From the NCBI GenBank assembly GCA_032622095.1, contig CP136064.1, forward strand, positions 170,632,310 to 170,696,309: a stretch of DNA of 64,000 nucleotides, read 5' to 3'. The notes under the pieces were generated by a model. It was not told the DNA's origin, made no database searches, and worked only from the letters and a program-made list of their open reading frames with translations. The first letter of the stretch is position 1. Each line of letters starts with the position of its first letter. Both the position numbers and the translations under genes were made by a program. This document shows, piece after piece, positions 217-59,653 of the stretch. This DNA is from Siphonodentalium dalli. Lineage: Eukaryota; Mollusca; Scaphopoda; Gadilida; Siphonodentaliidae.

Positions 217-489
217 GGTGAAGTGTGCAGAATATGTGGGCGGACGTACACATCAAAAGACGGTTGCAACCAGCACATGATAAGGCGACACAAGCCCCTT
301 AATTTCGTCTGTGTTATTTGTAACAAATATTTCGCAACAAATTATGAGCTTCGCCGTCACGCAGCCTCCCACTCGGATGATTTGCCCTATCCTTGCAATA
401 AGTGTGACCGGAGTTTTCGAACAAATAACACTTTGTGGAAACACAAGAGAATTAAACACCAAACTGGTGGGGATTCTCGGCGATATTAA
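217..489 (+). CDS. ZF exon 1: alternative 3'-terminal exon, three C2H2 fingers
   Basis: The coding island follows an acceptor AG at 215-216, is read in phase 0 and ends at TAA 487-489 (90 aa). Fingers are at residues 4-25 (C4,C7,H20,H25), 32-52 (C32,C35,H48,H52) and 60-81 (C60,C63,H76,H81). Linkers are not of the TGEKP type. An ATG at 205 lies in the putative intron and is probably not a start. It would give sequence-specific DNA binding to a trunk encoded upstream. It has no close sibling in the window, unlike most other units, and is separated from other C2H2 exons by the six long-loop exons. Domain call is strong; the splicing role is inferred from the whole array. Confidence 0.85.
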   Translation, partial: GEVCRICGRTYTSKDGCNQHMIRRHKPLNFVCVICNKYFATNYELRRHAASHSDDLPYPCNKCDRSFRTNNTLWKHKRIKHQTGGDSRRY

Positions 490-674
490 CATGTTTATCT
501 AACGATGGTATGAGAGTATGCGTTTCATATTAATTTAATGTTATAGAGAATTATAGAGATTTTTTAGTAGCGATGTAGGCCTACCTCACCAGTATGTAAA
601 GTTGTACAGAACAGTATTCCTCCATGGATTTATGTTCAGACGACAGACATTTTAGAATTTTTAGATTGTGTGTT

Positions 675-709
<35 letters not shown>

Positions 710-1362
710 CCTCCCCCTATCTCCAGTGGAAGATTGTAGCAATCAACTTATCGAAAATCCAGCACATCGACTACTATTTTAGAGAACATAAAGTTTGAAC
801 TACGTAGAAATATAAATATTTACTACATTATTCAGGGCGAAATATTGGACATAAAAAAAAATATTACGGCAATGATTTCGCCAACAGTAGTCACTACATG
901 TATTTTGTTTTTAACAATGATGTTGTTTTCGACCTATTTTGATATAAAATTTATAAAAATAACTTATCTTGGCATCATTCTTTGTTATTCCGTCTGAACA
1001 GCTCAGCGGAGTGTTTCAAATCACTTTAAAATGATGGATCAGGTTCCTTTGCTCTCTGGTAAAATATGCCCTCCGAAGGATCATGGTCTTTTGCCAGCTA
1101 GTAATATGGGATATTGAAAGATGCTCTCTGATTGACTACTGGATTTATAGAGTTATATGCTGTTCAAAGGCCTTAAATTCCAAAAAAAATTGCGAGAATA
1201 AGAACATCGCATTTCTACTGGGATTCCAAGACTTTTTACGAGAATTAAAATGAGAATCATGATTCTTATTCTCGTCAATAGAGCCTTGTATGGAGTGTTC
1301 TCCCTTCTGTGAACATAGCCTCCTCCTATAGAGTACAGTAAGATATGTGGTTATATTTTCAG
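490..1362. other. non-coding spacer with 31-C tract
   Basis: No gene seen. It holds an uninterrupted run of C at 676-706 followed by C/T-rich sequence; the rest is AT-rich. The pyrimidine tract and AG at 1361-1362 serve the next exon. Confidence 0.6.
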
Positions 1363-1692
1363 AATAAACTTCAAGGAAGAGAAATACGAGGCACGCCTGT
1401 TTTTCTTTCGACTCTGGAAAGGTGGCCTATGAGTCATCAACTTGGATTTGAAACTGAGCTGATCAGAGGCAGAGAACTTGTGACGAAAGTGTGGTGCAAA
1501 GTTTGCTCTGAAAATTCCACTGAAATTCTCAGATGTTTGAAGATTGGAATGCGTGATCGAGAACCTTATATGGTCGGCACCAGATCTGTGCGGAAGTCCA
1601 ATATAGAGACTCATATGACATCAGCGGCTCATAAGAAAGGGATTGAAATTCTCAGAGAGAAGAAGCAGGCATTCTCGTTCACTTCTCCCTAG
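1363..1692 (+). CDS. ZF exon 2: long-loop CCHH zinc finger (C17orf113/TTF-like)
   Basis: Phase-0 island after acceptor AG 1361-1362, stop TAG 1690-1692, 109 aa. An N-terminal segment with an R-W-P motif (residues 20-22) and G-F-E-T (28-31) precedes V-T-K-V-W-C (40-45). The metal ligands are C45, C48, H84 and H90, spacing C-x2-C-x35-H-x5-H, with Y-M-V-G-T in the loop. This layout resembles the single finger of vertebrate C17orf113, ZNF862 and KIAA1586, which derive from hAT-type transposases; that link is from memory of the pattern. It is closest to exons 3 and 4 ('VWCKVC' or 'IWCLVC', then E-N-x-x-E-I). Role in the gene inferred: an alternative DNA- or protein-binding tail. Confidence 0.8.
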   Translation, partial: NKLQGREIRGTPVFLSTLERWPMSHQLGFETELIRGRELVTKVWCKVCSENSTEILRCLKIGMRDREPYMVGTRSVRKSNIETHMTSAAHKKGIEILREKKQAFSFTSP

Positions 1693-4661: not shown

Positions 4662-5021
4662 AAGAAACCGCATAAAGAAATCCTTGGATCACAAGTTCTT
4701 CTCAGGACTCTAAAAGCTTGGCCATGGAGTCACATTGTGGGATATGAAACTGCTTTATGTAGTGGTCCTGGTGGAAACCGTGATGTTGTGACAAAAGTTT
4801 GGTGTAAAGTTTGTGTGGAAAATATTGATGAAATTTCTCACCGAGCAAATCTAAGAGGGCGTCTCGTGAAGAGGAATGAAGAACCGTACATAATCGGGAC
4901 ACGGTCTGTGTCAAGATATAAATTTGGGCGACATGTCAAGAGCATTATACATCAGATAGGAGAGAAGATTATTTTAGAAAAAGAAAACGTTAGAAATGAT
5001 TGTTCTTCAGTTCAAAAGTAG
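4662..5021 (+). CDS. ZF exon 3: long-loop CCHH zinc finger (C17orf113/TTF-like)
   Basis: The island begins after acceptor AG 4660-4661 and ends at TAG 5019-5021 (119 aa). It has no ATG near its 5' end, so it cannot be a stand-alone gene, which supports splicing to an upstream exon. A W-P motif lies at 20-21 and G-Y-E-T at 27-30; ligands are C48, C51, H91 and H97 (C-x2-C-x39-H-x5-H), with Y-I-I-G-T-R before the histidines. Closest relatives are exons 2 and 4 on either side. Only 395 bp separate it from exon 4, the shortest intron in this subset. Function of the domain inferred from family resemblance. Confidence 0.8.
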   Translation, partial: KKPHKEILGSQVLLRTLKAWPWSHIVGYETALCSGPGGNRDVVTKVWCKVCVENIDEISHRANLRGRLVKRNEEPYIIGTRSVSRYKFGRHVKSIIHQIGEKIILEKENVRNDCSSVQK

Positions 5022-5416: not shown

Positions 5417-5740
5417 TTTACTCTGGAAAGAGCTCGAGGTCGACCAATTTCTCTCGCTGCTATGAAATGCTGGCCATTCATTAACCAACTTGGTTATGAA
5501 TCCATCACTGTTAATTGCAAGGAAGTAGTGACAAAAATTTGGTGCTTGGTTTGTTCCGAAAATGCCGACGAAATTATGAGAGATCCTCGTATGGGTGAGC
5601 GGCAAAAGGCATCGGAGCAATACATGATTGGAACAAAATTTGTGAAGAAGTGGACAGCAGAAAGACATTTAGACTCTAAGGCCCATGCCATTGGAATGGA
5701 AATTATGAGAAGAGATAACCAATACACTGAAGGAGACTAG
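5417..5740 (+). CDS. ZF exon 4: long-loop CCHH zinc finger (C17orf113/TTF-like)
   Basis: Phase-0 island after acceptor TTTCAG (AG 5415-5416), stop TAG 5738-5740, 107 aa. Conserved positions are W19-P20, G26-Y27-E28 and V38-T39-K40; ligands are C43, C46, H84 and H90 (C-x2-C-x37-H-x5-H), with Y-M-I-G-T-K in the loop and S-K-A-H at the end. It shares the S-E-N-A/S-x-E-I motif after the second cysteine with exon 2. Together with exons 2 and 3 it forms one sub-clade, distinct from exons 5-7 in which the sequence after W-P/A is T-G-G. Confidence 0.8.
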   Translation, partial: FTLERARGRPISLAAMKCWPFINQLGYESITVNCKEVVTKIWCLVCSENADEIMRDPRMGERQKASEQYMIGTKFVKKWTAERHLDSKAHAIGMEIMRRDNQYTEGD

Positions 5741-6570: not shown

Positions 6571-7224
6571 TTTATGCAAAAAATGTTTACGATTAAGTCA
6601 AACATGGCCCATTGAGGCCAGCACCAATGTAAGGTTTTTTTATTAGCTCTTCTTTCACCTAAGTGATTGTCAGGTAAAGTGGGTGTCTGACCAGGTAACA
6701 AATTGTCAGGATAGGCGACCACAAACCTAGCACATTAGAATGACAGAGACCAAGTCAGAGTAATGCACTGGCTGGTCGACCAAAAGGCGTTTGGGTTAGG
6801 CTCAAAGCAGGTTTTAGTAAAAAGATTCAACAGCTTAAAATATATGTGTCATAAATGTTCCCAAATAAAATTGGTGATGCAAGAGGAGAGGGTCTGCAAA
6901 GCATATAAAGGAAGGGGTGTACAATTCAGTCAGGGTCCCAATCCACAAAAAATAAATTTAGAGCCTACAGACCAAAACAAGTTTTATGAATCAAAAGTTA
7001 AACCACATTTCTGAAATTTATAACATTTATCACTTTAAAACTATTCAAATTTGAAGACCATAGAAGTAAATTGCATTAAAAAAACCAAAGTTGGATTAAA
7101 GACAAATTTTACGTATTCAAAATTACTATTCATTGTTTTATAACTCAATAAAAGTCAAGTCGAATATTTGCAGGGCCCTTTCGGTAGGGAAACAACAACT
7201 ACAAGTTTATTTTTCTTCCGCATA

Positions 7225-7486
7225 CAGTAATGCCCTAATTAGTGGACTGCTTAACCACAGCAGAATTATGGGTAACTTTTCAGGATTTAGTCGGAAATAT
7301 GGCTTGTTACCATTCATCGGAAAGCTCTCCCAGAGAAATATGGCTTGTTTGTTGCCATTCATCGTAAAGCTCTCCCAGAGAGCTTTCCGATGAATGGCAA
7401 CAAGCCATATTTCCAACTAAATCCTGAAAAGTTACCCATAATTCTGCTGTGGTTATTAAAGCAGTCAATTAATTAGGGCATTACTG
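7225..7486. mobile_element. TA-flanked palindromic MITE, family 1, copy 1
   Basis: Starts CAGTAATGCCC and ends GGGCATTACTG, with TA on both sides. It is longer than the usual 215 bp because the centre (around 7300-7400) has an extra partial copy of the 'atatggcttgtt...aaagctctc' segment. Confidence 0.8.
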
Positions 7487-7867: not shown

Positions 7868-8209
7868 GGAGCATATTGTTCTGCCGTGAAGCTTGATGGT
7901 GCTGTGCTTTTCTCAACATTTTCACGCTGGCCAACTGGGGGTCTTATAGGATGTAAAACCGAGCAGGACTCATTTGGCAGAAACTTAGTGAAAGAAGTCT
8001 GGTGTAATCTGTGTATCCAATATTCAGAGCAGATCCTTTCTGAAACGCGGAAATCTCGCCGGAATACCAAGGAGGCTGAAACATATATGAAGGGAACCAG
8101 TCGTTCTATCACAAAATTCAATGTGATGCGTCATTTATCATCTAAAGCCCATGCCATTGGTGTTAGATTGAGCAGTTGTGACCCGCAGCCGTTTGTCCTT
8201 GACGGTTAG
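7868..8209 (+). CDS. ZF exon 5: long-loop CCHH zinc finger, WPTGG subtype
   Basis: Phase-0 island after acceptor TTTTCAG (AG 7866-7867), stop TAG 8207-8209, 113 aa. It has R-W-P-T-G-G at 20-25, C-K-T-E at 29-32 and V-K-E-V-W-C at 41-46. Ligands are C46, C49, H89 and H95 (C-x2-C-x39-H-x5-H), with Y-M-K-G-T before the histidines and S-S-K-A-H at the end. It is closest to exons 6 and 7 but retains the W of 'VWC' that those two replace with R, making it intermediate between the two sub-clades. Upstream ATGs are intronic. Confidence 0.8.
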   Translation, partial: GAYCSAVKLDGAVLFSTFSRWPTGGLIGCKTEQDSFGRNLVKEVWCNLCIQYSEQILSETRKSRRNTKEAETYMKGTSRSITKFNVMRHLSSKAHAIGVRLSSCDPQPFVLDG

Positions 8210-10158: not shown

Positions 10159-10545
10159 AATCAATCAGCTGTTAAACGTTCCACTGTAGCATTGTGGACT
10201 TTCAAGCGCTGGCCAACTGGGGGAACATTTGATTACAAAACCGAGACTACTCCCGGTGGAAAGATACTGGTTACTGAAGTGAGGTGTCAGATCTGTCGAA
10301 GATATTCTGACAAGATTCGATCTTCTGAAAAGATCAGAGGTCAAGCAAAACGCGAAGCAGAAGTATTTATGAGAGGCTCAAAACAGATCACAAAACATAG
10401 TTTACTGCGTCACATGATGTCAAAATCTCATTTATATGGTTTTGAATTAAATCGACAGGAGTTGAGACCAATAATTGTTATTACGGAAAATCTGCCAAAG
10501 TGTCTACCAAAGCCGAAAAAGAAGACAAAGAGGAAGAAAAATTGA
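10159..10545 (+). CDS. ZF exon 6: long-loop CCHH zinc finger with basic tail
   Basis: Phase-0 island after acceptor GGTTTCAG (AG 10157-10158), stop TGA 10543-10545, 128 aa and the longest of its class. R-W-P-T-G-G is at 17-22, Y-K-T-E at 26-29 and V-T-E-V-R-C at 38-43. Ligands are C43, C46, H85 and H91 (C-x2-C-x38-H-x5-H), with F-M-R-G-S in place of the usual Y-M-x-G-T. The C-terminus is strongly basic (K-P-K-K-K-T-K-R-K-K-N, residues 118-128), a plausible monopartite nuclear localisation signal that its siblings lack. No ATG near the 5' end. Closest sibling: exon 7. Confidence 0.8.
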   Translation, partial: NQSAVKRSTVALWTFKRWPTGGTFDYKTETTPGGKILVTEVRCQICRRYSDKIRSSEKIRGQAKREAEVFMRGSKQITKHSLLRHMMSKSHLYGFELNRQELRPIIVITENLPKCLPKPKKKTKRKKN

Positions 10546-11463: not shown

Positions 11464-11832
11464 AGGAATCAGCCACCAGAAAAAGGTTCTAAAATATCGT
11501 TGCCAACCTTCAATCGCTGGGCAACAGGGGGAGTATTTGAATACAAGACTGAGAGAGCAGCAGATGGAAGGATATTGGTTTCTGAAGTCCGCTGCCGAAC
11601 TTGTAGGCGTTACTCAGACGAGATCTTACATCTGGCAGGCCATCGCTTCAAAGGGGAAGTGAAAAATTGTGTAGAGAATTATATGAAAGGGACAAGATTT
11701 GTCCACAAAGGGAATATAACCCGTCACTTAAGGTCAAAATTCCATTTACATGGAGTTGATCTCGGCAAGAAAGATTTCTATCTGACACCTATGTTTAACG
11801 CTGAGGAAAACAATACTTCAGATTATTGTTGA
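11464..11832 (+). CDS. ZF exon 7: long-loop CCHH zinc finger, WATGG subtype
   Basis: Phase-0 island after acceptor TTTTCAG (AG 11462-11463), stop TGA 11830-11832, 122 aa. R-W-A-T-G-G is at 18-23, Y-K-T-E at 27-30 and V-S-E-V-R-C at 39-44. Ligands are C44, C47, H88 and H94 (C-x2-C-x40-H-x5-H), with R-R-Y-S-D-E-I after the second cysteine as in exon 6, Y-M-K-G-T-R in the loop, and an acidic C-terminal end. The 40-residue loop is the longest of the six. It is the last member of the long-loop block; all exons downstream are C2H2. Confidence 0.8.
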   Translation, partial: RNQPPEKGSKISLPTFNRWATGGVFEYKTERAADGRILVSEVRCRTCRRYSDEILHLAGHRFKGEVKNCVENYMKGTRFVHKGNITRHLRSKFHLHGVDLGKKDFYLTPMFNAEENNTSDYC

Positions 11833-13297: not shown

Positions 13298-13498
13298 GGG
13301 AAGCTGAGGTGTTCACTCTGTTTGAGGGCATACACATCAACAAAAGCTTTTCAGGATCACATCATTCGCTATCACAAGAAACATAACTACAAGTGTGAAT
13401 GCGGATTAACGTTTCCGTTCAAATACGACCTGTATCGACATGTATCAAGAAGTGGGCATGGATATCAAAAAACAAAAGGGAACGGAGATTTATTATAA
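13298..13498 (+). CDS. ZF exon 8: two C2H2 fingers, second with C-x-C knuckle
   Basis: Phase-0 island after acceptor AACAG (AG 13296-13297), stop TAA 13496-13498, 66 aa, opening with G-K-L-R-C. Finger 1 is C5,C8,H21,H26 (C-x2-C-x12-H-x4-H). Finger 2 is C33,C35,H48,H54, with only one residue between the cysteines (K-C-E-C-G) and five between the histidines. The same short knuckle recurs in exons 9 and 10, so it is not a sequencing slip. The interfinger segment Y-H-K-K-H-N-Y is identical in exon 9. It is one of three tandemly related copies in 2.4 kb. Confidence 0.85.
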   Translation, partial: GKLRCSLCLRAYTSTKAFQDHIIRYHKKHNYKCECGLTFPFKYDLYRHVSRSGHGYQKTKGNGDLL

Positions 13499-13626
13499 AT
13501 AACATTCTGTATAATTCATCATAATTGTGTGGTTATTTAATAGAAAGAAATGACAAGATTGAAATTTTTTTGCTGACTTTAAATGCATCCAGAATCACAC
13601 TTATAATTTGTTAGATGTGGCAGGTA

Positions 13627-13844
13627 CAGTAATGCCCAAAGTAATTGACCACTTAACCACAGCATAATTATGGGTAATTTTTCAGGATTTAGTCGGAAAT
13701 ATGGCTTGTTGCCATTCATCGGAAAGCTTTCGGCGAGAGCTTTCCGATGAATGGCAACAAGCCATATTTCCGACTAAATCTTGAAAAATTACCCATAATT
13801 CTGCTGTTGTTAAGTAAAGTGGTCAATTACTTTGGGCATTACTG
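13627..13844. mobile_element. TA-flanked palindromic MITE, family 1
   Basis: 218 bp, CAGTAATGCCC to GGGCATTACTG with TA at both ends. The two arms are nearly exact reverse complements meeting at 'cggcgagagc' near 13732. Confidence 0.85.
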
Positions 13845-14822: not shown

Positions 14823-15038
14823 GGCAAGCTGAGGTGTTCTCTCTGTTTGAGAGCATATGCATCAACAAGAGTGTTTCGGGAGCACATCGTTCGCTATCAC
14901 AAGAAACATAACTACAAATGTGAATGTGGAAAAACCTTTCCGTTCAAATACGACCTGTATCGGCATGAAATGAGAAGCTGTCATGGATCACAAAAATCAA
15001 AAAAAGGAAAATACAAAGAATTTTCTCCTGCATGTTGA
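14823..15038 (+). CDS. ZF exon 9: two C2H2 fingers, second with C-x-C knuckle
   Basis: Phase-0 island after acceptor ATCATAG (AG 14821-14822), stop TGA 15036-15038, 71 aa. It starts G-K-L-R-C-S-L-C like exon 8. Finger 1 is C5,C8,H21,H26. Finger 2 is C33,C35,H48,H54 with C-E-C-G-K-T-F and F-K-Y-D-L-Y-R-H. A lysine-rich tail follows (S-K-K-G-K-Y-K). High identity to exon 8 across both fingers indicates a recent tandem duplication; differences are concentrated around residues 13-20 of the first finger (helix region) and the tail. No ATG at its 5' end. Confidence 0.85.
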   Translation, partial: GKLRCSLCLRAYASTRVFREHIVRYHKKHNYKCECGKTFPFKYDLYRHEMRSCHGSQKSKKGKYKEFSPAC

Positions 15039-15488: not shown

Positions 15489-15656
15489 GCGAAGCTGAAA
15501 TGTGGGCTGTGCTCCAGAACTTACACATCACGACAAGCATTCAAGAGGCACATCACTCGGTTTCACAGAAAGCATAAATTCAAATGTGAATGCGGGAAAA
15601 CATTCCCCTTCAAATATGAGCTATATCAACATAGAACAATGCGACATCGGAAATAG
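15489..15656 (+). CDS. ZF exon 10: two C2H2 fingers, second with C-x-C knuckle
   Basis: Phase-0 island after acceptor TACTGTAG (AG 15487-15488), stop TAG 15654-15656, 55 aa. It has no ATG that would mark it as an ORF, and was found by reading from the acceptor. It begins A-K-L-K-C-G-L-C. Finger 1 is C5,C8,H21,H26; finger 2 is C33,C35,H48,H53 with the K-C-E-C-G-K-T-F knuckle shared with exons 8 and 9 and P-F-K-Y-E-L-Y. It ends three residues after the last histidine pair (H-R-K-stop), so it is the most compact of the three. Confidence 0.85.
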   Translation, partial: AKLKCGLCSRTYTSRQAFKRHITRFHRKHKFKCECGKTFPFKYELYQHRTMRHRK

Positions 15657-17411: not shown

Positions 17412-17606
17412 AAAATATGGTGCGAGCAATGTGGGCGTGGCTATACGAGTAGGAGGACTTTTCGTGAGCATAACTATCGTCACCACAGGCCCCGTAGCCA
17501 TATCTGTGAATTGTGCCAGAAGTCTTTCTTCTTCCAGTGGCAGCTTCGAAACCATCTGCGAGATAAGCATGATGCAGTGACGGTTGCTCCAACCGAGAAA
17601 AAATGA
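17412..17606 (+). CDS. ZF exon 11: two C2H2 fingers
   Basis: Phase-0 island after acceptor GACAG (AG 17410-17411), stop TGA 17604-17606, 64 aa, no ATG in frame. Finger 1 is C4,C7,H20,H25 with G-R-G-Y-T-S-R-R and R-H-H in the histidine part (H24 also available). Finger 2 is C32,C35,H48,H53 with an ordinary C-x2-C and three phenylalanines in a row before the helix. The layout (first finger H-x4-H, short R-rich linker) places it with exons 8-10, but with a normal second knuckle. Stops on the opposite strand are absent over part of it, giving spurious antisense frames. Confidence 0.85.
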   Translation, partial: KIWCEQCGRGYTSRRTFREHNYRHHRPRSHICELCQKSFFFQWQLRNHLRDKHDAVTVAPTEKK

Positions 17607-19265: not shown

Positions 19266-19565
19266 GACAAAAAGCCTTTTACATGCCGCGAATGCAGTGC
19301 TGTGTTTCTTAACAAGATGTCTTTGGAGCATCATGAACCCACTCATGGGAAGAAAATGTGTGAACGCTGTGGCAAGTCATTCACAAGTAACTTTGTTCTG
19401 GCCGCCCATCTTTTGAGTCATATGAAACAAACTGGGCGAGGATCATACCCCTGCGAAATATGTGGCAAAAAGTACTTTGTGAAGTCTGAGTTTATAAATC
19501 ACATCAAAGGCCACCTGGATGGTGATGAAGGGAAAAAGAAGAAAAAGTCATGCCTAGTATACTAG
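19266..19565 (+). CDS. ZF exon 12: three C2H2 fingers, lysine-rich tail
   Basis: Phase-0 island after acceptor TATCAG (AG 19264-19265), stop TAG 19563-19565, 99 aa. Fingers are at 7-27 (C7,C10,H23,H27), 32-52 (C32,C35,H48,H52) and 63-83 (C63,C66,H79,H83), all C-x2-C-x12-H-x3-H. The link between fingers 1 and 2 is only G-K-K-M, shorter than normal, while that between 2 and 3 is ten residues. The tail G-K-K-K-K-K-S (89-96 region) could be a nuclear signal. The acceptor has a weaker pyrimidine tract than its neighbours. No close sibling in the window. Confidence 0.85.
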   Translation, partial: DKKPFTCRECSAVFLNKMSLEHHEPTHGKKMCERCGKSFTSNFVLAAHLLSHMKQTGRGSYPCEICGKKYFVKSEFINHIKGHLDGDEGKKKKKSCLVY

Positions 19566-21680: not shown

Positions 21681-21833
21681 TATATTGTCTTCTGTAATCG
21701 TGACATTCTCATAGTGAAATTATTCTCAGTATTATAACTATTTTGTTCATAAATCATCGGAACAGTAGTAACTAGGTTTGGCAATAATTGTTTAAATGGC
21801 CTGCGACTGATTTAAGATAGCAGTGCTTAAGTA

Positions 21834-22046: not shown

Positions 22047-22179
22047 TATGTCAATTTTCTAGGATCAAAAATAGGTCTATATACACATGAAATACTGTTA
22101 TTTGGACTTCAATTTGGTCATTTAAATTAATTCTTATACACTGCAAACAATATAATCTATTATCAGAACATGGTCCCTC

Positions 22180-23269: not shown

Positions 23270-23515
23270 GCAGTTCGTCAGCAGAATGCGATCATACATT
23301 ACCAGATGACCGGTGAGATGTTCCAATGCACGCTTTGTGGGCGACATTTCAAATGCAAGCAGTATCTGACAACTCACATGTCTCGTCACGCCGAGCGCTT
23401 CCAACATTTCTGTGAGATGTGTGGGAAAGGATTCAAATTTTATACAAATTTACGTAGACATATTCGTGAAAAAAATCATTCATCAAAGCCAAGGATGAAT
23501 CAGCCAAGAATATAA
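23270..23515 (+). CDS. ZF exon 13: two C2H2 fingers
   Basis: Phase-0 island after acceptor ATTGCAG (AG 23268-23269), stop TAA 23513-23515, 81 aa. A 19-residue polar lead precedes finger 1 (C20,C23,H36,H40). Finger 2 is C48,C51,H64,H70, ending H-x5-H, with K-F-Y-T-N-L-R-R-H. That last helix is shared with the final finger of exons 17-19 (F-Y-T-x-x-R-K-H), so exon 13 looks like a two-finger relative of the three-finger group further downstream. Confidence 0.85.
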   Translation, partial: AVRQQNAIIHYQMTGEMFQCTLCGRHFKCKQYLTTHMSRHAERFQHFCEMCGKGFKFYTNLRRHIREKNHSSKPRMNQPRI

Positions 23516-25891: not shown

Positions 25892-26110
25892 GTGTATCCA
25901 GAGCAATTAGACACAAATTATAGTGAAGTTCATTGGAAAAACAACCAAGATAACAGTTGTCAAATTTGTGGTAAAGTGTGCAGCGATAGATATCTGCTGA
26001 AAAGTCACATATTGGTGCACTCTCGTAAGCTGGAACAAATTTGTACAAGTTGTGGAGCATCTTTCAGATTCAGAAATCAGTTACGTCGCCACAAAATCAA
26101 ATACCACTGA
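25892..26110 (+). CDS. ZF exon 14: two C2H2 fingers, cysteine in place of aromatic
   Basis: Phase-0 island after acceptor CTTGCAG (AG 25890-25891), stop TGA 26108-26110, 72 aa; the last residue is the final zinc-ligand histidine. Finger 1 is C23,C26,H39,H43; the usual aromatic after G-K-x is replaced by C30 (G-K-V-C). Finger 2 is C51,C54,H67,H72 (H-x4-H) with G-A-S-F and N-Q-L-R-R-H. Both oddities recur in exon 15, its tandem sibling 1.4 kb downstream, so they predate the duplication. The 22-residue lead is acidic/polar. Confidence 0.85.
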   Translation: MYPEQLDTNYSEVHWKNNQDNSCQICGKVCSDRYLLKSHILVHSRKLEQICTSCGASFRFRNQLRRHKIKYH

Positions 26111-27489: not shown

Positions 27490-27696
27490 GTTTACTTCAA
27501 TATGACACATGGAAAGGACCAAACTGTCAACTGTCGAGTGTGTGGCAAGATATGTCAATCAAAAGGGATCCTCAAAGATCATATGTTGCTGCACTCTGAT
27601 TACTTGGGACGAATTTGCTCGTTTTGTGGAGCTTCATTCAAGTTCAGGAGCCAGTTGAGCCGACATAAATTGAAATTCCACAGTTCTCATTCATAG
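27490..27696 (+). CDS. ZF exon 15: two C2H2 fingers, cysteine in place of aromatic
   Basis: Phase-0 island after acceptor CTTGCAG (AG 27488-27489), stop TAG 27694-27696, 68 aa. Finger 1 is C15,C18,H31,H35 with G-K-I-C (C22 instead of F/Y). Finger 2 is C43,C46,H59,H64 with G-A-S-F-K-F-R-S-Q-L-S-R-H. Spacing, the odd C22, the I-C-x-x-C-G-A-S-F block and the V-Y start all match exon 14. Differences fall mainly in the lead and the finger-1 helix (K-G-I-L-K-D against R-Y-L-L-K-S). Confidence 0.85.
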   Translation, partial: VYFNMTHGKDQTVNCRVCGKICQSKGILKDHMLLHSDYLGRICSFCGASFKFRSQLSRHKLKFHSSHS

Positions 27697-28861: not shown

Positions 28862-29176
28862 TTTCATAATGAGAGAGCTAGATCTTCTGATTTTTCCTGC
28901 ATTGTTTGTAAGATGAGGTTCAACAACTCGTCACTTTTGCAACAACACATCAAGACTCATGGCAGTCACGAAGCACATAATTGTTATGAATGTGGGAAGG
29001 TCTTTGCTTCGAAATTCCAATTACAGAGCCATATGAGTATACATTCAGATCACCTGAGATGGATCTGTCCAATTTGTGGTAAAGGTTTCCGACATAATAC
29101 ACAGATGCTGAGACACAGGAAGAGGTATCACCCTGATGTTAACATATTTCATTCTCTAAATGTTGCTTTGGAATGA
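28862..29176 (+). CDS. ZF exon 16: three C2H2 fingers
   Basis: Phase-0 island after acceptor TTTTGCAG (AG 28860-28861), stop TGA 29174-29176, 104 aa. Fingers are C13,C16,H29,H33; C41,C44,H57,H61; and C69,C72,H85,H90 (last H-x4-H). Finger 1 has K-M-R-F in place of G-K-x-F. The linker before finger 3 (H-S-D-H-L-R-W-I-C) resembles those of exons 14 and 15 (S-D-Y-L-G-R-I-C), suggesting that fingers 2-3 share descent with them. A candidate AATAAA lies at 29196-29201, 20 bp after the stop, fitting a terminal exon. Confidence 0.85.
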   Translation, partial: FHNERARSSDFSCIVCKMRFNNSSLLQQHIKTHGSHEAHNCYECGKVFASKFQLQSHMSIHSDHLRWICPICGKGFRHNTQMLRHRKRYHPDVNIFHSLNVALE

Positions 29177-34029: not shown

Positions 34030-34296
34030 GGTGGGCTTTCCTCGCAGTATAGATGTGATATTTGTGGACGCTCCTACACTGCCGCATCATCTCTGACCAG
34101 GCACAAAAACGTACACATGGATGTAGGAAAATACCCTTGCCAATTGTGTGGACGAAGATTTCCCTTATTGGATTATTTAAAAGCGCACATGTCTAGTCAT
34201 TCAGCTGCTCGGCACTTTAAGTGTCAACATTGTGGTAAAGGCTTCCGATACTACACTCATCTCAGGAAGCATGTTCGCGAGACTCATCTAACTTAA
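34030..34296 (+). CDS. ZF exon 17: three C2H2 fingers
   Basis: Phase-0 island after acceptor CATTTCAG (AG 34028-34029), stop TAA 34294-34296, 88 aa; read from the acceptor as it has no early ATG. Fingers are C9,C12,H25,H29; C37,C40,H53,H57; and C65,C68,H81,H86. It shares with exons 18 and 19 the x-V-G/P-K-Y linker before finger 2, A/S-H-M-S-S-H at the end of finger 2, and the F3 helix Y-T-H-L-R-K-H. Helix residues -1/2/3/6: F1 A/S/S/R, F2 L/D/Y/A, F3 Y/T/H/K. It ends two residues after the last histidine. Confidence 0.85.
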   Translation, partial: GGLSSQYRCDICGRSYTAASSLTRHKNVHMDVGKYPCQLCGRRFPLLDYLKAHMSSHSAARHFKCQHCGKGFRYYTHLRKHVRETHLT

Positions 34297-36291: not shown

Positions 36292-36567
36292 GCAGTTTGG
36301 AACTCTGAACTTGGCTGTGAAATCTGCGGAAAGTGTTTTTCAAGAAAAGGGTCCTACCAGAGACACATAAAAAGTCATGTGAATGTGGGAAAATATATGT
36401 GCGAAATATGCTACCGAAGCTTCTCTCGCCAGGATTATCTACAATCCCATATGTCTTCTCACTCAATTACAAAAATGTTTCAGTGCAAATTCTGTTCCAA
36501 CTCATTCAAATTCTATACTCAACTTAGGAAGCACATACGTCATACCCATGTGACAAAAGAGTATTGA
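36292..36567 (+). CDS. ZF exon 18: three C2H2 fingers
   Basis: Phase-0 island after acceptor TTCTTCCAG (AG 36290-36291), stop TGA 36565-36567, 91 aa. Fingers are C9,C12,H25,H29; C37,C40,H53,H57; and C65,C68,H81,H86. Same spacing as exon 17 throughout, with V-N-V-G-K-Y as first linker and S-H-M-S-S-H at the end of finger 2. Helix residues -1/2/3/6: F1 R/G/S/R, F2 R/D/Y/S, F3 F/T/Q/K. It differs from its siblings by G-K-C-F and C-Y-R-S-F in the knuckle-to-helix segments. An internal ATG at 36414 is not a start. Confidence 0.85.
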   Translation, partial: AVWNSELGCEICGKCFSRKGSYQRHIKSHVNVGKYMCEICYRSFSRQDYLQSHMSSHSITKMFQCKFCSNSFKFYTQLRKHIRHTHVTKEY

Positions 36568-37195: not shown

Positions 37196-37462
37196 GTTGA
37201 GGCTCCTGTCTACTGTGAAATTTGTGGACGGGGATACAGCTCCAGATCGTCATTAAAGCGGCATAAACAAGTTCATGGCAATGTGCCTAAATACTCATGT
37301 GAAATATGTGGCCGAGGCTTCCCTCTGTTGGGTTACCTACAAACTCACATGTCAAGTCATGCATCTCACCGACAGCATAAATGCACTTTCTGTAGCAAAG
37401 AATTCAAGTTCTATACATCGTATAGAAAACATATTCGAGACATGCACTTAAAGGGGAATTAA
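37196..37462 (+). CDS. ZF exon 19: three C2H2 fingers
   Basis: Phase-0 island after acceptor CTTTTGCAG (AG 37194-37195), stop TAA 37460-37462, 88 aa. Fingers are C7,C10,H23,H27; C35,C38,H51,H55; and C63,C66,H79,H84. Third copy of the exon 17-19 trio, with N-V-P-K-Y linker, T-H-M-S-S-H and F-Y-T-S-Y-R-K-H. Helix residues -1/2/3/6: F1 S/S/S/R, F2 L/G/Y/T, F3 F/T/S/K. A good AATAAA lies at 37498-37503, 36 bp after the stop, giving a very short 3' UTR if used. Confidence 0.87.
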   Translation, partial: VEAPVYCEICGRGYSSRSSLKRHKQVHGNVPKYSCEICGRGFPLLGYLQTHMSSHASHRQHKCTFCSKEFKFYTSYRKHIRDMHLKGN

Positions 37463-38029: not shown

Positions 38030-38212
38030 ATGCGCATGCATACATGTGACATTTGTGGAAAGTCATATCTTCACCACCGGAACCTGGTTCGACATAAATG
38101 GTCTCATCGCCCAACATCCAACTTCACTTGCCAATTGTGCGGCAAAACGTTCTCAAGAAGTGATCATTATAAATGTCACATGGACAAACACAGAAAGCAC
38201 AATCAGATTTGA
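38030..38212 (+). CDS. ZF exon 20: two C2H2 fingers (RSD type)
   Basis: Phase-0 island after acceptor GCTTTCAG (AG 38028-38029), stop TGA 38210-38212, 60 aa. The first codon is ATG by chance. Finger 1 is C6,C9,H22,H26; finger 2 is C34,C37,H50,H54. Linker R-P-T-S-N-F-T has canonical length but no TGEKP. Helix residues -1/2/3/6: F1 H/R/N/R; F2 R/D/H/C, the R-S-D start being that of Zif268-type G-recognising fingers. First of five related exons (20-24); R-H-K-W-S-H in finger 1 is shared with exon 21. Confidence 0.86.
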   Translation: MRMHTCDICGKSYLHHRNLVRHKWSHRPTSNFTCQLCGKTFSRSDHYKCHMDKHRKHNQI

Positions 38213-38746: not shown

Positions 38747-38914
38747 GTCCCTCCATATATTTGTGAAATGTGTGGACGGTCCTATCTGCAAAAACGAAAC
38801 TTGATTCGGCACAAATGGTCTCATCGAAGCCACTGGAAGTTTATTTGCGAGTTATGTGGCAAACGATTCCCGAGGAGTGACCAGTACTCAGCACACATGA
38901 GGGTTCCCCATTGA
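38747..38914 (+). CDS. ZF exon 21: two C2H2 fingers (RSD type)
   Basis: Phase-0 island after acceptor TGCTTTCAG (AG 38745-38746), stop TGA 38912-38914, 55 aa, no ATG at its start. Finger 1 is C6,C9,H22,H26; finger 2 is C34,C37,H50,H55, the latter H-x4-H and the last residue of the protein. Helix residues -1/2/3/6: F1 Q/R/N/R; F2 R/D/Q/A. The linker has S-H-W-K-F, introducing the tryptophan found in exons 22-30. A candidate AATAAA lies at 38966-38971, 52 bp after the stop. Confidence 0.86.
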   Translation, partial: VPPYICEMCGRSYLQKRNLIRHKWSHRSHWKFICELCGKRFPRSDQYSAHMRVPH

Positions 38915-40354: not shown

Positions 40355-40543
40355 ACTGGCTATTATCCGTGCAGTATTTGTGGGCGGTCTTACCAGCACA
40401 GAGTGAACCTGAGGCGACATGAGCGCTCTCATAAAGCTCAGTGGAAATTCAACTGTCCTCTTTGTGGAAAAATGTTTTTCAGATCTGACCAATACAAGTT
40501 ACATATGAAAGGTCACAAAAGAGATAACCCGCTCTCACACTGA
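40355..40543 (+). CDS. ZF exon 22: two C2H2 fingers (RSD type)
   Basis: Phase-0 island after acceptor TTGATTTCAG (AG 40353-40354), stop TGA 40541-40543, 62 aa, with no early ATG. Finger 1 is C6,C9,H22,H26; finger 2 is C34,C37,H50,H54. Linker K-A-Q-W-K-F-N. Helix residues -1/2/3/6: F1 H/V/N/R; F2 R/D/Q/L. The knuckle C-P-L-C-G-K-M-F-F-R-S-D is close to that of exon 23. A short polar tail of eight residues follows. Confidence 0.86.
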   Translation, partial: TGYYPCSICGRSYQHRVNLRRHERSHKAQWKFNCPLCGKMFFRSDQYKLHMKGHKRDNPLSH

Positions 40544-41749: not shown

Positions 41750-41914
41750 ATATCTCGATTTGTTTGTGGAATTTGTGGTCGGTCATATCAGGCAAAGAAA
41801 AATTTGCTGCGACATGAACGGTTGCACCAGGGTTGGAAATTATCATGTCCTTTTTGTGGGAAAGTTTTCTTTAGAACTGATGTGTTTAAAAAGCATATGA
41901 AAATACATCAGTGA
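41750..41914 (+). CDS. ZF exon 23: two C2H2 fingers (RTD type)
   Basis: Phase-0 island after acceptor TTTTTTTCAG (AG 41748-41749), stop TGA 41912-41914, 54 aa. Finger 1 is C6,C9,H22,H26; finger 2 is C33,C36,H49,H53. The linker is six residues (Q-G-W-K-L-S), one shorter than in exons 20-22 and 24, and like exons 25-30. Helix residues -1/2/3/6: F1 A/K/N/R; F2 R/D/V/K. It ends one residue after the last histidine. Confidence 0.86.
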   Translation: MSRFVCGICGRSYQAKKNLLRHERLHQGWKLSCPFCGKVFFRTDVFKKHMKIHQ

Positions 41915-42928: not shown

Positions 42929-43174
42929 ATTGGTCCATTTCGTTGTGAAATATGTGGGAAAGCATATGCACAAAAGGTGAATTTATGTCGACACAAAAGG
43001 TCACACAGTGATTCATGGAAATTCACTTGTAAATACTGTGGCAAAGTGTACAACAGGAGTGACCATTATAAATTACATATAATGAGACATGAACACAGAA
43101 GGCAGGGGTGTAATAACTCTCTTATTGCAAATTCCGACAAGATTGATGTAATGTATTTAGGGCCACAGACATAG
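42929..43174 (+). CDS. ZF exon 24: two C2H2 fingers (RSD type), long tail
   Basis: Phase-0 island after acceptor TGCTTTCAG (AG 42927-42928), stop TAG 43172-43174, 81 aa, no early ATG. Finger 1 is C6,C9,H22,H26; finger 2 is C34,C37,H50,H54. Linker S-D-S-W-K-F-T. Helix residues -1/2/3/6: F1 Q/V/N/R; F2 R/D/H/L. The 27-residue C-terminal tail is unlike those of its siblings and has no recognisable motif; a lost stop codon is a possible origin. Confidence 0.85.
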   Translation: MGPFRCEICGKAYAQKVNLCRHKRSHSDSWKFTCKYCGKVYNRSDHYKLHIMRHEHRRQGCNNSLIANSDKIDVMYLGPQT

Positions 43175-44806: not shown

Positions 44807-45017
44807 TAGTAATGCCTGAAGTATATGACCCTTTAACCACAACAGAATTTTGGGAATTTTTTCAGGATATAGTGGGAAATATGGCTTGCTGCCATTCATC
44901 GGAAGGCTCTCGGTGAGAGCTTTCTGATGAATGGCAAGAAGCCATATTTCCGACTAAATCCTGAAAAATTTCCCATAATTCTGCTGTGGTTTAGGGGTCG
45001 ATTATTTAGGAATTCTG
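44807..45017. mobile_element. family 1 MITE, diverged ends
   Basis: Left 'tagtaatgcctgaagtata', right 'attatttaggaattctg'; the central hairpin 'aaggctctcggtgagagcttt' is intact. Confidence 0.75.
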
Positions 45018-45745
45018 TAGTTCAGATGTTGTGTTTTCTGAAATGGTATCAATGATCAATGTGGTTGGAGTTTTAGGCAATACATGTATCAGTTGAATGC
45101 TATATTCTTCTAATGGGCATTGTTCTGGTACTTACTAATTTAGATCCACTGAAATTAGCACACGAGAATAACACTCTGAAAGCTATAAGTCACTTTATGT
45201 GATTATTTGCCTGAATTACCTGTGTATTGTTATGGAGCTTGGCTTTTATTATTGATATTCTGTATGAATATTTCTTGTACAAATTCTTTTAATTGTATAC
45301 AAATTAGTGACAGGCTGGTGCTGTCGATATGTATATATATTTGTGTGAGATAGTTGATTAATTTTTGTAAAGAAATACAAGTAATAAAGAATTTTCAGCA
45401 AATATTTCTGTTTTTGTCTAATGTTGGGATTCACAAGTTGTCACACAAATGTTGGGATTCCTAAGTTAAAGGGGCACATGGTGTTCACAACTTCAAATTT
45501 AACCCTTATAAAAGTATATATTGGAATACCTTACTCATATTTAAATTTGTGCGGTACTTTTTCGCACACCCGTAGGTGTGCGAATTTAAAAATGAGCGAA
45601 AAATAGTTTGACTATTAATTTAAAATATACCACAGGGAAAATAAGAGGGTTCTGTTGATGAGTTACATACATTACGAAACGTTGAACACTGAATAGGTAA
45701 TTATGCCTATACATGTTCGTGTAGGCCTATATTTACATTCGGTCA

Positions 45746-45845
45746 NNNNNNNNNNNNNNNNNNNNNNNNNNNNNNNNNNNNNNNNNNNNNNNNNNNNNNN
45801 NNNNNNNNNNNNNNNNNNNNNNNNNNNNNNNNNNNNNNNNNNNNN
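45746..45845. other. assembly gap (100 N)
   Basis: Exactly 100 N, the conventional placeholder for a gap of unknown size. It lies between ZF exons 24 and 25, at the transition between two exon subfamilies, so exons may be missing. Confidence 0.98.
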
Positions 45846-46481: not shown

Positions 46482-46652
46482 GCTGTTGATCTGCAGTGCC
46501 GGAATTGTGGGAAACAATACACTAACAGATCGAGTTACTCAAGACATATGCTACAGCATGAACAATGGAAATATCCGTGCTCTATTTGTGGAAGAAAGTT
46601 CTACAGGCGTGATATGTTGCTACGTCACTATCGCTCACATAATAGGAACTAA
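46482..46652 (+). CDS. ZF exon 25: two C2H2 fingers (RxD type)
   Basis: Phase-0 island after acceptor GCATTTCAG (AG 46480-46481), stop TAA 46650-46652, 56 aa. Finger 1 is C6,C9,H22,H26; finger 2 is C33,C36,H49,H53. The six-residue linker E-Q-W-K-Y-P belongs to the 'x-Q-W' type of exons 25-30. Helix residues -1/2/3/6: F1 N/S/S/R; F2 R/D/M/R. It ends three residues after the last histidine. First member after the assembly gap. Confidence 0.86.
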   Translation, partial: AVDLQCRNCGKQYTNRSSYSRHMLQHEQWKYPCSICGRKFYRRDMLLRHYRSHNRN

Positions 46653-49708: not shown

Positions 49709-49894
49709 GTTTACAATCCATCATCATACATGTGCCAGCTCTGTGGGAAAGAATATAAGCTAAGAGACAGCTACACCAGACATATGCGAGCGCACAAACA
49801 ATGGCGACACAAATGCTCAATTTGTGGCAAGCTATTCTATAGGGCGGACGAATTGAAAAATCACATGAACAGACATAAGTTAAATGCGACTTAG
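49709..49894 (+). CDS. ZF exon 26: two C2H2 fingers (RxD type)
   Basis: Phase-0 island after acceptor GCTTTTCAG (AG 49707-49708), stop TAG 49892-49894, 61 aa. Finger 1 is C9,C12,H25,H29; finger 2 is C36,C39,H52,H56. Linker K-Q-W-R-H-K. Helix residues -1/2/3/6: F1 L/D/S/R; F2 R/D/E/N. The lead is three residues longer than in exons 25 and 27. It is the closest intact relative of the pseudo-exon at 51966-52100, sharing 'Y-R-A-D-E' of finger 2. Confidence 0.86.
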   Translation, partial: VYNPSSYMCQLCGKEYKLRDSYTRHMRAHKQWRHKCSICGKLFYRADELKNHMNRHKLNAT

Positions 49895-52714: not shown

Positions 52715-52930
52715 GTTAAATTTCATCAGTGTCAGCTCTGTGGAAAGCAGTATGAACATCGAGGCAGCTTTACAAGGCATCTCCGACAGCACAAACAGTG
52801 GAAATATGCTTGTGAAATTTGCGACAAACCATACTATAGAATCGACAATTTCTTGCGTCATTTGGCTGCACACAAGAGACAAACAGCAGCTTCTAAAAGC
52901 GTTGTGTTATCCACTTCTGGCACTGAATAA
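52715..52930 (+). CDS. ZF exon 27: two C2H2 fingers (RxD type)
   Basis: Phase-0 island after acceptor ACGTTGCAG (AG 52713-52714), stop TAA 52928-52930, 71 aa. Finger 1 is C6,C9,H22,H26; finger 2 is C33,C36,H49,H53. Linker K-Q-W-K-Y-A. Helix residues -1/2/3/6: F1 H/G/S/R; F2 R/D/N/R. The 18-residue tail is rich in S, T, A and Q. A larger overlapping open frame is a shadow in another frame. Confidence 0.86.
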   Translation, partial: VKFHQCQLCGKQYEHRGSFTRHLRQHKQWKYACEICDKPYYRIDNFLRHLAAHKRQTAASKSVVLSTSGTE

Positions 52931-54322: not shown

Positions 54323-55528
54323 AATTTTGTTCGCCTAGACAAATGATATGTATATAATCTAAGATATGTGGATATGATTATTCCTATATTAAATACTTAA
54401 TGTGAATGTGAAGAGATTTCTGAGTATCTTGTCAGGCTATTAAAGTGCTTAAAGGTGGATTATCTCTTCTGCAACATTATCTATATAGTTTCTTTGGTAG
54501 GGTATAATAAATATTACTTGAAGACCACTGTCCGGAAATGTGTCTATTAATTAATAATGATTTTATTCTTTTTGGTATAACATAACTCTTTTCCATTCAA
54601 TAATGGTCCCTGATATTCACGACTGTCTTTTTTTATTTGCATTTATTGGTTAATTTAAGTATAGAAAATAGGTATATAATATGTATCTAGGACTTATCTA
54701 CTTTATTCGCAATTAATATTACAATAAATACAAAACTTTTGGAGACAGTTTGCAGCTCACATTCGTTCAGAGCACCACACTGGAGGCCTCTATCTAAAAG
54801 TTCTATATATAGAAAAAATAAGTGTCCCATTAATTGATACTTTATTTAGAACACTATAATAAAATAAAATCAACAATAATAGATAGAATTATTTACCGGG
54901 CAGGGATTTCAAACTCATACCTATTATTTCACACCCAGGAAACTATCTAAAATGTGCTATTTAAAGAGATAATCCATCTTTAAAATGTAAACATACATAG
55001 TGCAGTGTTGTGTATAAATGACTTACTCAGATGAATTGCATGGTTTTTGCAGATGAGGCATTTGAAGTGTCTTTGAATTTTTGTTGTCATGGGCATCTAA
55101 AACGACAGCTGTCGCTTTCTGTGAAATTACATTGCTATTCACACAGCGATCTGTGGCAAAAATCGTGATTGTACATTACATGTACTAGAATTATTTCTTT
55201 ATCAGAAATATCTTGCTTGACCATGCTTATTTACTTAATATGTGACAATGACTATATTTGTTACTCGGTATTGGTTATTCATGCAATTCTTTATACAAGC
55301 ACATCGCTTGTCTGTATGGGTTTCATTATGACCCCGCTGAATAAATTTTGTTTAATGAAACCAGTTAAGACATCATGACATGCCTCATGCCATCATTACG
55401 TCATTGGATTGCAGGCCAAAATCCAGACAAGACAAGATTCATCTCCAGGCAACTTATTTCGACTCACTAGACTAGACCATATGCAGACAATCTTCAATTA
55501 CTCCAGACATTCACACCGGTACCATATA

Positions 55529-55742
55529 CAGTAATGCTCTAAGTAAGCGACTTCTTAACCACAGCAGAATTATGGGTAAGTTTTCAGGATTTAGTCGGAA
55601 ATATGGCTTGTTGCCATTCATTGGAAAGGCTCTCCCCGAGAGCTTTCCGATGAATGGCAACAAGCCATATTTCCGACTAAATCCTGAAAACTTACCCATA
55701 ATTCTGCTGTGGTTAAGAAGTCGCTTACTTAGAGCATTACTG
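55529..55742. mobile_element. TA-flanked palindromic MITE, family 1
   Basis: 214 bp, CAGTAATGCTC to GAGCATTACTG, TA on both sides; arms almost exact, and they share private changes (AAGCGACTTC/GAAGTCGCTT). Confidence 0.85.
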
Positions 55743-56000
55743 TATGTATAAATCCTCCTTTCTATTTAAGTACATGTATGTACTCAACGAAGTGCCTCTG
55801 TTGAAGTCTAAACTGAAGCTACAAGCATTTGCATTACCACGCATTAATTAGACCTATTAAAATAGGTTCATGGCACGATTCTTCCTGAGGTTCTTTCCCT
55901 TTATAACATTGTATCGGAATTTGTCTATATGCCATGCATATTAACATATTATGACTATCATGCTTGAGATAAAGGGGCATTCTTCACTGTCTTATTTCAG

Positions 56001-56219
56001 ATGATCATTTGTATGGTCTGTAGTAAAGTCTACAGAAATAAAGATAGCTACAACAGACATAAACGCCAACACCAGCAGTGGGACTTCAAGTGCGCAATTT
56101 GTGACAAACTGTTTTATAGGCGAGACCACTGGAACCTTCACATGAAGGGGAAACACGGCGTAGTAGATCCCCACATGCATATGTCCAGAGGAGGTGATAG
56201 AGGACAAGAATTTCCATAG
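56001..56219 (+). CDS. ZF exon 28: two C2H2 fingers (RxD type)
   Basis: Phase-0 island after acceptor CTTATTTCAG (AG 55999-56000), stop TAG 56217-56219, 72 aa. The first codon is ATG, as in exons 20 and 29. Finger 1 is C4,C7,H20,H24; finger 2 is C31,C34,H47,H52 (H-x4-H). Linker Q-Q-W-D-F-K. Helix residues -1/2/3/6: F1 N/D/S/R; F2 R/D/H/L. It is nearly identical in layout to exon 29; finger-1 helices are the same at the four contact positions. Confidence 0.86.
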   Translation: MIICMVCSKVYRNKDSYNRHKRQHQQWDFKCAICDKLFYRRDHWNLHMKGKHGVVDPHMHMSRGGDRGQEFP

Positions 56220-58204: not shown

Positions 58205-58597
58205 CCCTTTAACCAACAGAAGGGCCCTGTGCCAATGCATTCTCTTATATATGCGAGTCGACCATAGGTCGCCTCGCATATATAAGAGAATGCATTGGCT
58301 TAACACATTAAAAATTATAAAATTGTTAAAGAATGTAAGAAAAAATGGTAAAAAGTGTTAAAAAAAGATTTTTGTTTAGGCCAATGCATTCTCTTATATA
58401 TGCGAGGCGACCTATGGTCGACTCGCATATATAAGAGAATGCATTGGCACAGGGCATAACTGTAACTATCACAATGTGGTCAAGGAGCCGGTTCCAATGA
58501 TATCCATATTTGTATGGTTCTATTGAGACAGACCGAAGATATTTTAGGCTGTTGAAGCTTTATTTGGCCGGTTTTGGCCGGTTTGTTGGGTAAAGGG
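58205..58597. mobile_element. TTAA-flanked family 3 MITE, intact
   Basis: 393 bp, TTAA at 58201-58204 and 58598-58601. Nearly the same sequence and orientation as 57114-57495, differing by a few substitutions and a short insertion in the AT-rich middle. Confidence 0.8.
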
Positions 58598-58754
58598 TTA
58601 ATGTTGGAAGCCCCTATTAGAGCATCTGATCTAAATCTGACTATTACCTTCGTATCTGCTTTCTGTTAGCATGTGCTGTTGTGTCGTACAGTTCTCACAA
58701 TATTAACATGGGTATTGACATGTCGTAAAAGAGTGCTTCACTGTCTTGTTTCAG

Positions 58755-58928
58755 ATGATCATGTGTAGGGTGTGTAGGAAGGTCTACAAAAACAGAGATA
58801 GCTACAACAGGCATAAACGTCAGCACCGACAATGGGACTTTCTTTGCCACATATGCAACAAACCGTTCTACAGGCGAGATGCCTGGAATGTTCACATGAA
58901 GTCGAAACATGGTATTGGACCCGAGTGA
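58755..58928 (+). CDS. ZF exon 29: two C2H2 fingers (RxD type)
   Basis: Phase-0 island after acceptor CTTGTTTCAG (AG 58753-58754), stop TGA 58926-58928, 57 aa, starting M-I-M-C. Finger 1 is C4,C7,H20,H24; finger 2 is C31,C34,H47,H52. Linker R-Q-W-D-F-L. Helix residues -1/2/3/6: F1 N/D/S/R; F2 R/D/A/V. It is the closest sibling of exon 28, even in the intron just upstream ('ttcactgtctt-tttcag' shared), so the duplicated unit included the acceptor region. Confidence 0.86.
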   Translation: MIMCRVCRKVYKNRDSYNRHKRQHRQWDFLCHICNKPFYRRDAWNVHMKSKHGIGPE

Positions 58929-59500
58929 TACTTAGCCAAACAATTTTGGTTGAGTCACCGACGAGGAAATTACCTCTATTAAACATGTGCTCACATTTAT
59001 CCAATTTAGCCCGATTAAACTAAATTTATAACTCGTTTAACTAAATATATTCTCCCGCCAGTTATAAAAGTATAATTTTGAATGGTCTAAGTGATGACCA
59101 AGTAATAAAAAATAAATTACCTATTAATGCAGACAAAATATCGTAGTCAAATTCAAATGCATTAGCATGAAAAAAGTGTTCAATGCAAGCGCATAGCCGT
59201 GAAATCACATACCAAATATGACTACGACTACATGTATGAAGCGCGCGGGTGTAGTGTCACCATTTCACAGATGAACTCTTCATGAAATAGGGGTATAGCT
59301 CAATCAGAAGGCGGGAAAGTCATGTGAGATACAAAATAGTTTAATAGTACATGTATTGTACATTATGAATCTCACTTGAAACAGAAATTCTATTGACGAT
59401 AGTTATTTAAAGGAATTCAAAAATATTTGTTTCTTTATATTATTTTCTCCCACTATGAACCTGACCAATATGGGCTACATGTATTTTCGTCTTTTTCTAG

Positions 59501-59653
59501 AAGTGTGGAAGGATGTACTCAAATCGGAGAAGCTACAACCGACACATACAGCAGCACAAACAGTGGCAGTACGAGTGCCCAATCTGCTATAGGAAATTCT
59601 ATAGAAGTGATGGCCTCGCCAATCATATGAAGTGTCATGGTGACAAACCTTGA
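59501..59653 (+). CDS. ZF exon 30: one intact C2H2 finger, first finger lacking a cysteine
   Basis: Island after acceptor CTTTTTCTAG (AG 59499-59500), phase 0, stop TGA 59651-59653, 50 aa. It begins K-C-G-R-M-Y, so only the second cysteine of finger 1 (C2) is present; H15 and H19 follow normally. The frame is closed upstream by the TAG of the acceptor, so the missing cysteine cannot be encoded here. Finger 2 is intact: C26,C29,H42,H46, helix R/D/G/N at -1/2/3/6. Linker K-Q-W-Q-Y-E. It is either a working exon with one finger or an exon on the way to loss. Three AATAAA motifs follow at 59675, 59713 and 59730. Confidence 0.7.
   Translation, partial: KCGRMYSNRRSYNRHIQQHKQWQYECPICYRKFYRSDGLANHMKCHGDKP

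Follow-up and report, generated by a model that had tools for sequence, protein, structure and literature searches.

A putative BTB zinc-finger gene with a variable 3' half of at least 47 alternative terminal exons

What kind of gene would line up dozens of short zinc-finger-coding exons on one strand, each with its own stop codon, is the question raised by the 64,000 nucleotides analyzed here (the window; C4:170632310-170696309, C4 denoting contig CP136064.1 of a 2.23-Gb genome assembled in 9 contigs). On the plus strand between positions 217 and 59653 of this window lie 30 islands, each situated behind a pyrimidine-rich AG, read in phase 0 relative to that AG and closed by its own stop. We propose, with a probability of roughly 0.87, that the window represents part of the variable 3' half of one gene for a BTB zinc-finger transcription factor, in which a common set of upstream exons (the head) would be spliced to any one of 47 or more alternative terminal exons (the tails).

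An earlier note on this DNA had described the islands as 30 same-strand, donorless zinc-finger exons, many of them without any ATG, that form the variable half of a lola- or mod(mdg4)-like gene. The core of this description withstood scrutiny: 30/30 islands are present with pyrimidine-rich AG, common phase and own stop. When the AGs of any phase within 110 bases upstream of an island were scored for their pyrimidine tracts, the phase-0 AG came first in 27/30 cases (3 ties) and second or third at islands 1363, 27490 and 28862. For the 17 tails outside the window (see below), scoring was done over 130 bases; across the entire array, the phase-0 AG was top-scored in 44 of 47 tails (4 ties), corresponding to a binomial P of ~5e-18 (p = 1/3, ties counted as hits). 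Other parts of the description had to be adjusted. The term zinc-finger exons applies strictly to the 24 tails with C2H2 fingers and holds for the whole set in a wider sense only, because six tails encode a different Cys-Cys/His-His domain (class-2 tails, with a finger-like domain). Exons without any ATG exist, but to call them many was an overstatement, as methionine-free tails amount to 5/30 in the window and 11/47 in the array. Likewise, 24 of the 30 tails are donorless in the sense of lacking a donor-like GT that agrees at 7/9 or more positions, but 6/30 do hold such a site internally, the best one (8/9) at 42977. The tails of the window are as follows (window coordinates, strand in brackets).

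217..489 (+), tail with three C2H2 fingers; phase 0; homologous to the first tail of the array (C4:170630910), which lies outside the window, 1.4 kb to its left
1363..1692 (+), class-2 tail (C17orf113-like finger, under the Pfam cut-off); phase-0 AG ranked third
4662..5021 (+), class-2 tail
5417..5740 (+), class-2 tail
7868..8209 (+), class-2 tail
10159..10545 (+), class-2 tail
11464..11832 (+), class-2 tail
13298..13498 (+), tail with a C2H2 finger and a second finger with C-E-C; ratio of nonsynonymous to synonymous substitution rates (dN/dS) of 0.39 versus tail 14823
14823..15038 (+), C2H2 tail
15489..15656 (+), C2H2 tail
17412..17606 (+), tail with two C2H2 fingers; AG score equal to that of a phase-2 AG
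19266..19565 (+), tail with three C2H2 fingers; AG score tied
23270..23515 (+), tail with two C2H2 fingers
25892..26110 (+), tail with two C2H2 fingers
27490..27696 (+), tail with two C2H2 fingers; phase-0 AG ranked second
28862..29176 (+), tail with three C2H2 fingers; phase-0 AG ranked second
34030..34296 (+), tail with three C2H2 fingers
36292..36567 (+), tail with three C2H2 fingers
37196..37462 (+), tail with three C2H2 fingers
38030..38212 (+), tail with two C2H2 fingers
38747..38914 (+), tail with two C2H2 fingers
40355..40543 (+), tail with two C2H2 fingers
41750..41914 (+), tail with two C2H2 fingers
42929..43174 (+), tail with two C2H2 fingers; contains the best internal donor-like site (8/9)
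46482..46652 (+), tail with two C2H2 fingers
49709..49894 (+), tail with two C2H2 fingers
52715..52930 (+), tail with two C2H2 fingers
56001..56219 (+), tail with two C2H2 fingers; dN/dS of 0.10 versus tail 58755
58755..58928 (+), tail with two C2H2 fingers
59501..59653 (+), tail with C2H2 fingers that start almost at the acceptor

The array turned out to be bigger than the at least 30 tails over 59 kb originally noticed. At least 47 plus-strand, phase-0 tail exons extend over 129 kb (C4:170630910-170759980), including one to the left of the window (C4:170630910) and 16 to its right, the last at C4:170759681-170759980. They encode 50-128 residues each; the gap from one tail to the next has a median of 2.0 kb and a maximum of 10.5 kb. 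Strand uniformity was complete: in 174 kb, open frames with the finger pattern CX2CX12HX3-5H numbered 42 on the plus and 0 on the minus strand, and matches to the class-2 pattern 6 and 0, respectively. The final 6 kb of the region examined (to C4:170766309) contained no further tail, and a genome search with one tail as query, in which the best 150 of 14707 candidates were scored, identified none on C4 past 170759935; 47 is therefore a lower bound, and so are the tail counts elsewhere in the genome, for which the best 150 candidates per query were scored as well. A 100-N run at 45746-45845, between tails 42929 and 46482, could hide a tail or another part of the array. The window also harbors a palindromic repeat, whole or partial, at 7207-7416, 13579-13773, 21792-22130, 34262-34510, 44873-45055 and 55476-55765, which gives rise to near-mirror open frames on both strands and is probably a short inverted-repeat transposable element. 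Elsewhere in the genome, long open frames on contig C3 (about 11-66 Mb) contain a very large number of C2H2 matches, as in large ordinary zinc-finger gene clusters.

A candidate for the shared half of the gene was found to the left of the window, on the strand of the tails. It starts with a BTB-N exon (C4:170596402-170596530; distance to the window ~36 kb) that has a phase-0 donor, followed by an 812-nt exon for BTB-C and a linker (C4:170599005-170599816, ~33 kb left of the window), which begins in phase 0 with AHKLLLFAVSS and ends in phase 2; the joined translation of the two matches Pfam PF00651 with 47.2 bits at a cut-off of 20.5. A phase-2 donor is incompatible with phase-0 tails, therefore predicting a missing exon with a length of 1 mod 3. 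A frame-blind DNA comparison with a duplicate locus (C4:171095400) yielded, amid many repeat-like blocks, block A 16099-16443 (86.8% identity), which in both loci resolves to a 283-nt (1 mod 3) acidic exon with a phase-2 acceptor and a phase-0 donor, located at C4:170608415-170608697 in the window's gene (donor GAG/GTAGGT, the slash marking the exon end). A 67-bp block (A 28569-28635), 97% identical to the duplicate locus and likewise 1 mod 3, was considered as the missing exon and rejected as repeat-like because it lacks splice sites. The upstream BTB domain ending in a phase-0 donor for which the earlier note had suggested to search was thus found largely as foreseen: the BTB is there and the last shared exon ends in phase 0, but the donor belongs to a separate acidic exon. 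According to our model, three common exons (BTB-N, BTB-C plus linker, and acidic linker) would end at the phase-0 donor C4:170608697, and splicing of this donor to a terminal exon chosen from 47 or more, all in phase 0 and with stops of their own, would let one gene specify at least 47 proteins that share a dimerising, acidic head and differ in the DNA-binding tail. The head comprises 408 residues, and the reading frame continues across its predicted join with the tail up to the stop of that tail in 47/47 cases, in line with the window being the variable half of a gene; the tails sit 22-151 kb from this last shared donor. We infer that such joins do happen and are made in cis, that a separate poly(A) site goes with every tail, and that the resulting proteins act as transcription factors.

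The BTB exon pair recurs in the genome. A search with the joined BTB identified 27 BTB-N/BTB-C pairs on C4, C6, C7 and C8, including that of the window's gene, with a weak C partner (E ~0.09) in two of them. In addition, one fused single-exon head (C4:236451647; locus C4:236451200-236453700) reads through the predicted BTB-N/BTB-C join, has retained the phase-2 GT after the linker and is followed by related tail matches at C4:236565654-236614799, from 114 kb on. BTB-C open frames were present in 19 of the 22 BTB loci examined, the other three having none by the pattern used, and in 17/19 loci a phase-2 GT coincides with the frame end or is a few codons away from it (15 scoring at least 7/9; L022 and L028 scoring 6/9 and read by eye). 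Acidic phase 2-to-0 exons similar to that of the window's gene were detected in 9/15 loci, using scans for phase 2-to-0 exons only, the second of which (4/10 loci) retained only acidic, K-x-E or W-aromatic candidates. After several heads, tail matches follow on the same strand as the head. At the duplicate (head C4:171095537), four tails were read, all with a phase-0 AG, with an additional tail match at 171137142, and both tails read after head C6:78832888 are in phase 0; further tail matches, with the phase unread, were obtained after heads C6:170492050, C6:208967816 (from 160 kb), C4:236451647 and C4:170541434 (minus strand).

Close tail pairs are under purifying selection, as dN/dS ranged from 0.10 to 0.56 in 12 tail pairs of >60% identity, which overlap in tails and are thus not independent of each other. 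The 99 fingers of the array comprise 89 distinct contact-residue sets, and the contact-residue strings are all different across the C2H2 tails (41/41). Between the window's locus and the duplicate, the synonymous divergence (dS) amounts to 0.12 for the first 240 codons of BTB-C, 0.80 for the last 30 codons and 0.29 for the acidic exon, with a jump near BTB-C codon 240 (L001 6696-7507 compared with L023 from 144); introns align only in scattered pieces, and the three duplicate-locus tails compared are 49-50% identical to their best counterparts. The dS pattern of the head may reflect gene conversion of the head between the duplicates.

Several findings do not fit smoothly with the proposed gene model and have to be weighed against it. 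Poly(A) hexamers are not enriched behind the tails (26/47 within 500 bases after the stop versus 29.5 expected). Two of the 19 BTB-C frames (L006 and L027) have no phase-2 GT at their end, 6/15 loci gave no acidic exon within the ~3 kb searched, and the phase of the acidic exon, beyond the window's gene and the duplicate, is partly a matter of construction because only phase 2-to-0 exons were sought. Moreover, a multi-finger frame at the duplicate locus (C4:171122148-171122552) lacks a usable phase-0 AG, its best one being in phase 1; this frame possibly represents an exon of another gene. Finally, the 22 kb that separate the first tail from the acidic exon may contain further shared exons.

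The exon architecture is the same as in mod(mdg4), where tails are trans-spliced to give over 30 isoforms according to PMC12692577, and the tails are 22-151 kb away from the last shared donor, both of which would be compatible with tails that have separate promoters and whose transcripts are trans-spliced to those of the head. We nevertheless regard such a mode as improbable, since every tail was found on the head's strand, unlike the both-strand tails described for mod(mdg4) in the same article, and since the 500 bases past the acidic-exon donor revealed no convincing common intronic motif, of the kind reported for mod(mdg4), among 9 loci. Within the first 150 bases after this last donor, the best motifs were TTTCTT, found in 6/9, and TAACCCTTT, in 3/9 loci, each matched by 2% of simple shuffles in ten tests, and U1-like words appeared once each in 2/9 loci. 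Support for trans-splicing was thus not obtained at this locus, and one strand, one phase and the lack of a convincing intronic motif favor cis splicing of alternative terminal exons as the most likely mode. A wider version of the idea, in which ~28 BTB heads, each in front of a tail array of its own and with some tails derived from a transposase, would constitute a genome-wide, independently evolved, non-arthropod system that uses hundreds of tails combinatorially through trans-splicing exchange and heterodimerisation, seems unlikely to us as well; phase 0 is common to the head donors found and to nearly all tails checked, making an exchange between loci conceivable.

Since neighboring tails are as much as 10.5 kb apart, which leaves space for other exons, and since C3 holds very many C2H2 matches, each island might also be imagined as the final exon of a different zinc-finger gene, many such genes being nested here with 5' exons and promoters of their own. 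This is very unlikely in view of the uniform phase (44/47 by a score unconstrained with respect to phase) and strand, the upstream BTB head with its matching phase-0 donor, and the order of head and then tails at other loci. We attach the least credence to the idea that exon duplication left behind an array now in decay, in which few tails still work: the missing poly(A) enrichment and the repeats lying between the tails would agree with decay, but 47/47 tails, chosen by finger motif and open frame, have intact open frames after the AG, and dN/dS is <0.6 in 12/12 close pairs. The gene model with one shared head and cis-spliced tails accommodates these features best.

The class-2 tails (1363, 4662, 5417, 7868, 10159 and 11464) encode a Cys-Cys/His-His domain with invariant columns that include W, C-x2-C and H-x5-H. 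Three of the six match PF25431 with E values of 0.001, 0.017 and 0.59, the best reaching 19.3 bits and thus staying under the cut-off of 29.5. Tail 5417 as query showed 37-38% identity to the N-terminus of an 858-residue multicopy open reading frame (ORF), which is itself under the same PF25431 cut-off (17.7 bits). At least five copies of this ORF have that length, and further copies differ in length; the two copies read (L052 310-2883; L053, minus strand) are near-identical and reside on different contigs, and the ORF is probably a young DNA transposon. We take the ORF and the C17orf113-type finger to be hAT-type, a label given from the ORF's look without a family match. An AlphaFold model of one class-2 tail, calculated with six sequences, had a predicted local distance difference test score (pLDDT) of 87.6, which makes it a confident model. 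Its best structural alignments were with chains of the U1 and U11 small nuclear ribonucleoproteins and with TUT enzymes, at Z scores of 2.5-4.3 that are too low for an assignment (48 residues aligned with 4pjo_m at 1.3 Å); we presume these structural neighbors to be zinc fingers, U1C being the only one named by a title. Uninformative absences were a Foldseek search with the model (no match at E <= 0.001), a profile search of the PDB based on the six class-2 tails (nothing) and NCBIfam (queried with the head BTB, one class-2 tail and the 858-residue ORF, none of which matched). A transposase origin of the class-2 tails appears likely from these resemblances, and such transposase-like tails suggest one source for new tails. 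Compared with the C17orf113/hAT-type finger, the likeness consists in the match of tail 5417 to the ORF's N-terminus and in the sub-cut-off PF25431 matches; the difference is that class-2 tails hold the finger only, without the remaining ORF.

How the locus relates to known BTB genes depends on its head. Ordinary ZBTB genes, the animal BTB-C2H2 genes, have one finger set each; the window's gene resembles them in that C2H2 fingers would follow the BTB in frame after the predicted join, and differs in offering a selectable array of fingers. In the PDB, the best matches of the head BTB were ZBTB17/BCL6 fusions and BACH1 (1e-10 to 1e-8), compared with 2.9e-5 for the TTK-type fly BTB CG6765. Using a Drosophila lola BTB sequence as query, identity to the head BTB was 24%, and none of the five genome matches at E <= 1e-6 (25-35% identity) is the window's gene. 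By these comparisons, the head BTB is ZBTB-like and not TTK-type. TTAGGG-repeat matches numbered 7367 in the genome versus 0 in the control, and the searches for arthropod cuticle PF00379 and mollusc haemocyanin PF14830 gave no genome match, which is uninformative because the control genomes gave none either.

In PMC11426971 and PMC12692577, lola is described with 20 isoforms, 17 of which have differing C2H2 tails (PMC11426971), and mod(mdg4) with at least 30 isoforms built from shared BTB exons and alternative 3' exons, mostly with FLYWCH rather than C2H2 domains (both articles), and with tails on both strands that are trans-spliced from independent promoters (PMC12692577). The BTBs of both belong to the TTK group, reported in arthropods only, and the fly's non-TTK BTB-C2H2 proteins are listed with a single isoform each (PMC11426971). 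The likeness to lola lies in one BTB head with many alternative 3' exons, mostly C2H2, known in our case from sequence alone; set against the TTK-type BTB of lola are a ZBTB-like BTB, at least 47 tails, ~28 heads in a single genome and six tails with other than C2H2 fingers. With mod(mdg4), as portrayed there, the locus shares the common BTB exons and the more than 30 alternative 3' exons; it departs from the both-strand tails and trans-splicing of that gene in using one strand and in giving no sign of trans-splicing. The lola/mod(mdg4) likeness of the earlier note therefore applies to the predicted way of working and not to membership, because the BTB is non-TTK and opposite-strand tails were not found, and the family of BTB heads and tails probably evolved independently of the arthropod genes. 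Judging by titles and abstract openings, we found no such locus described outside arthropods. The gene model makes testable how a single last donor picks among dozens of acceptors across 150 kb, and whether trans-splicing in the style of mod(mdg4) is needed for it. For arthropod TTK-type BTB genes, a large-scale choice of DNA-binding tails is known and is accompanied by a hexamer-forming BTB; the same design with an even larger set of tails on a ZBTB-like BTB, probably in a non-arthropod, would mean that it can evolve repeatedly and independently of the TTK-type domain.

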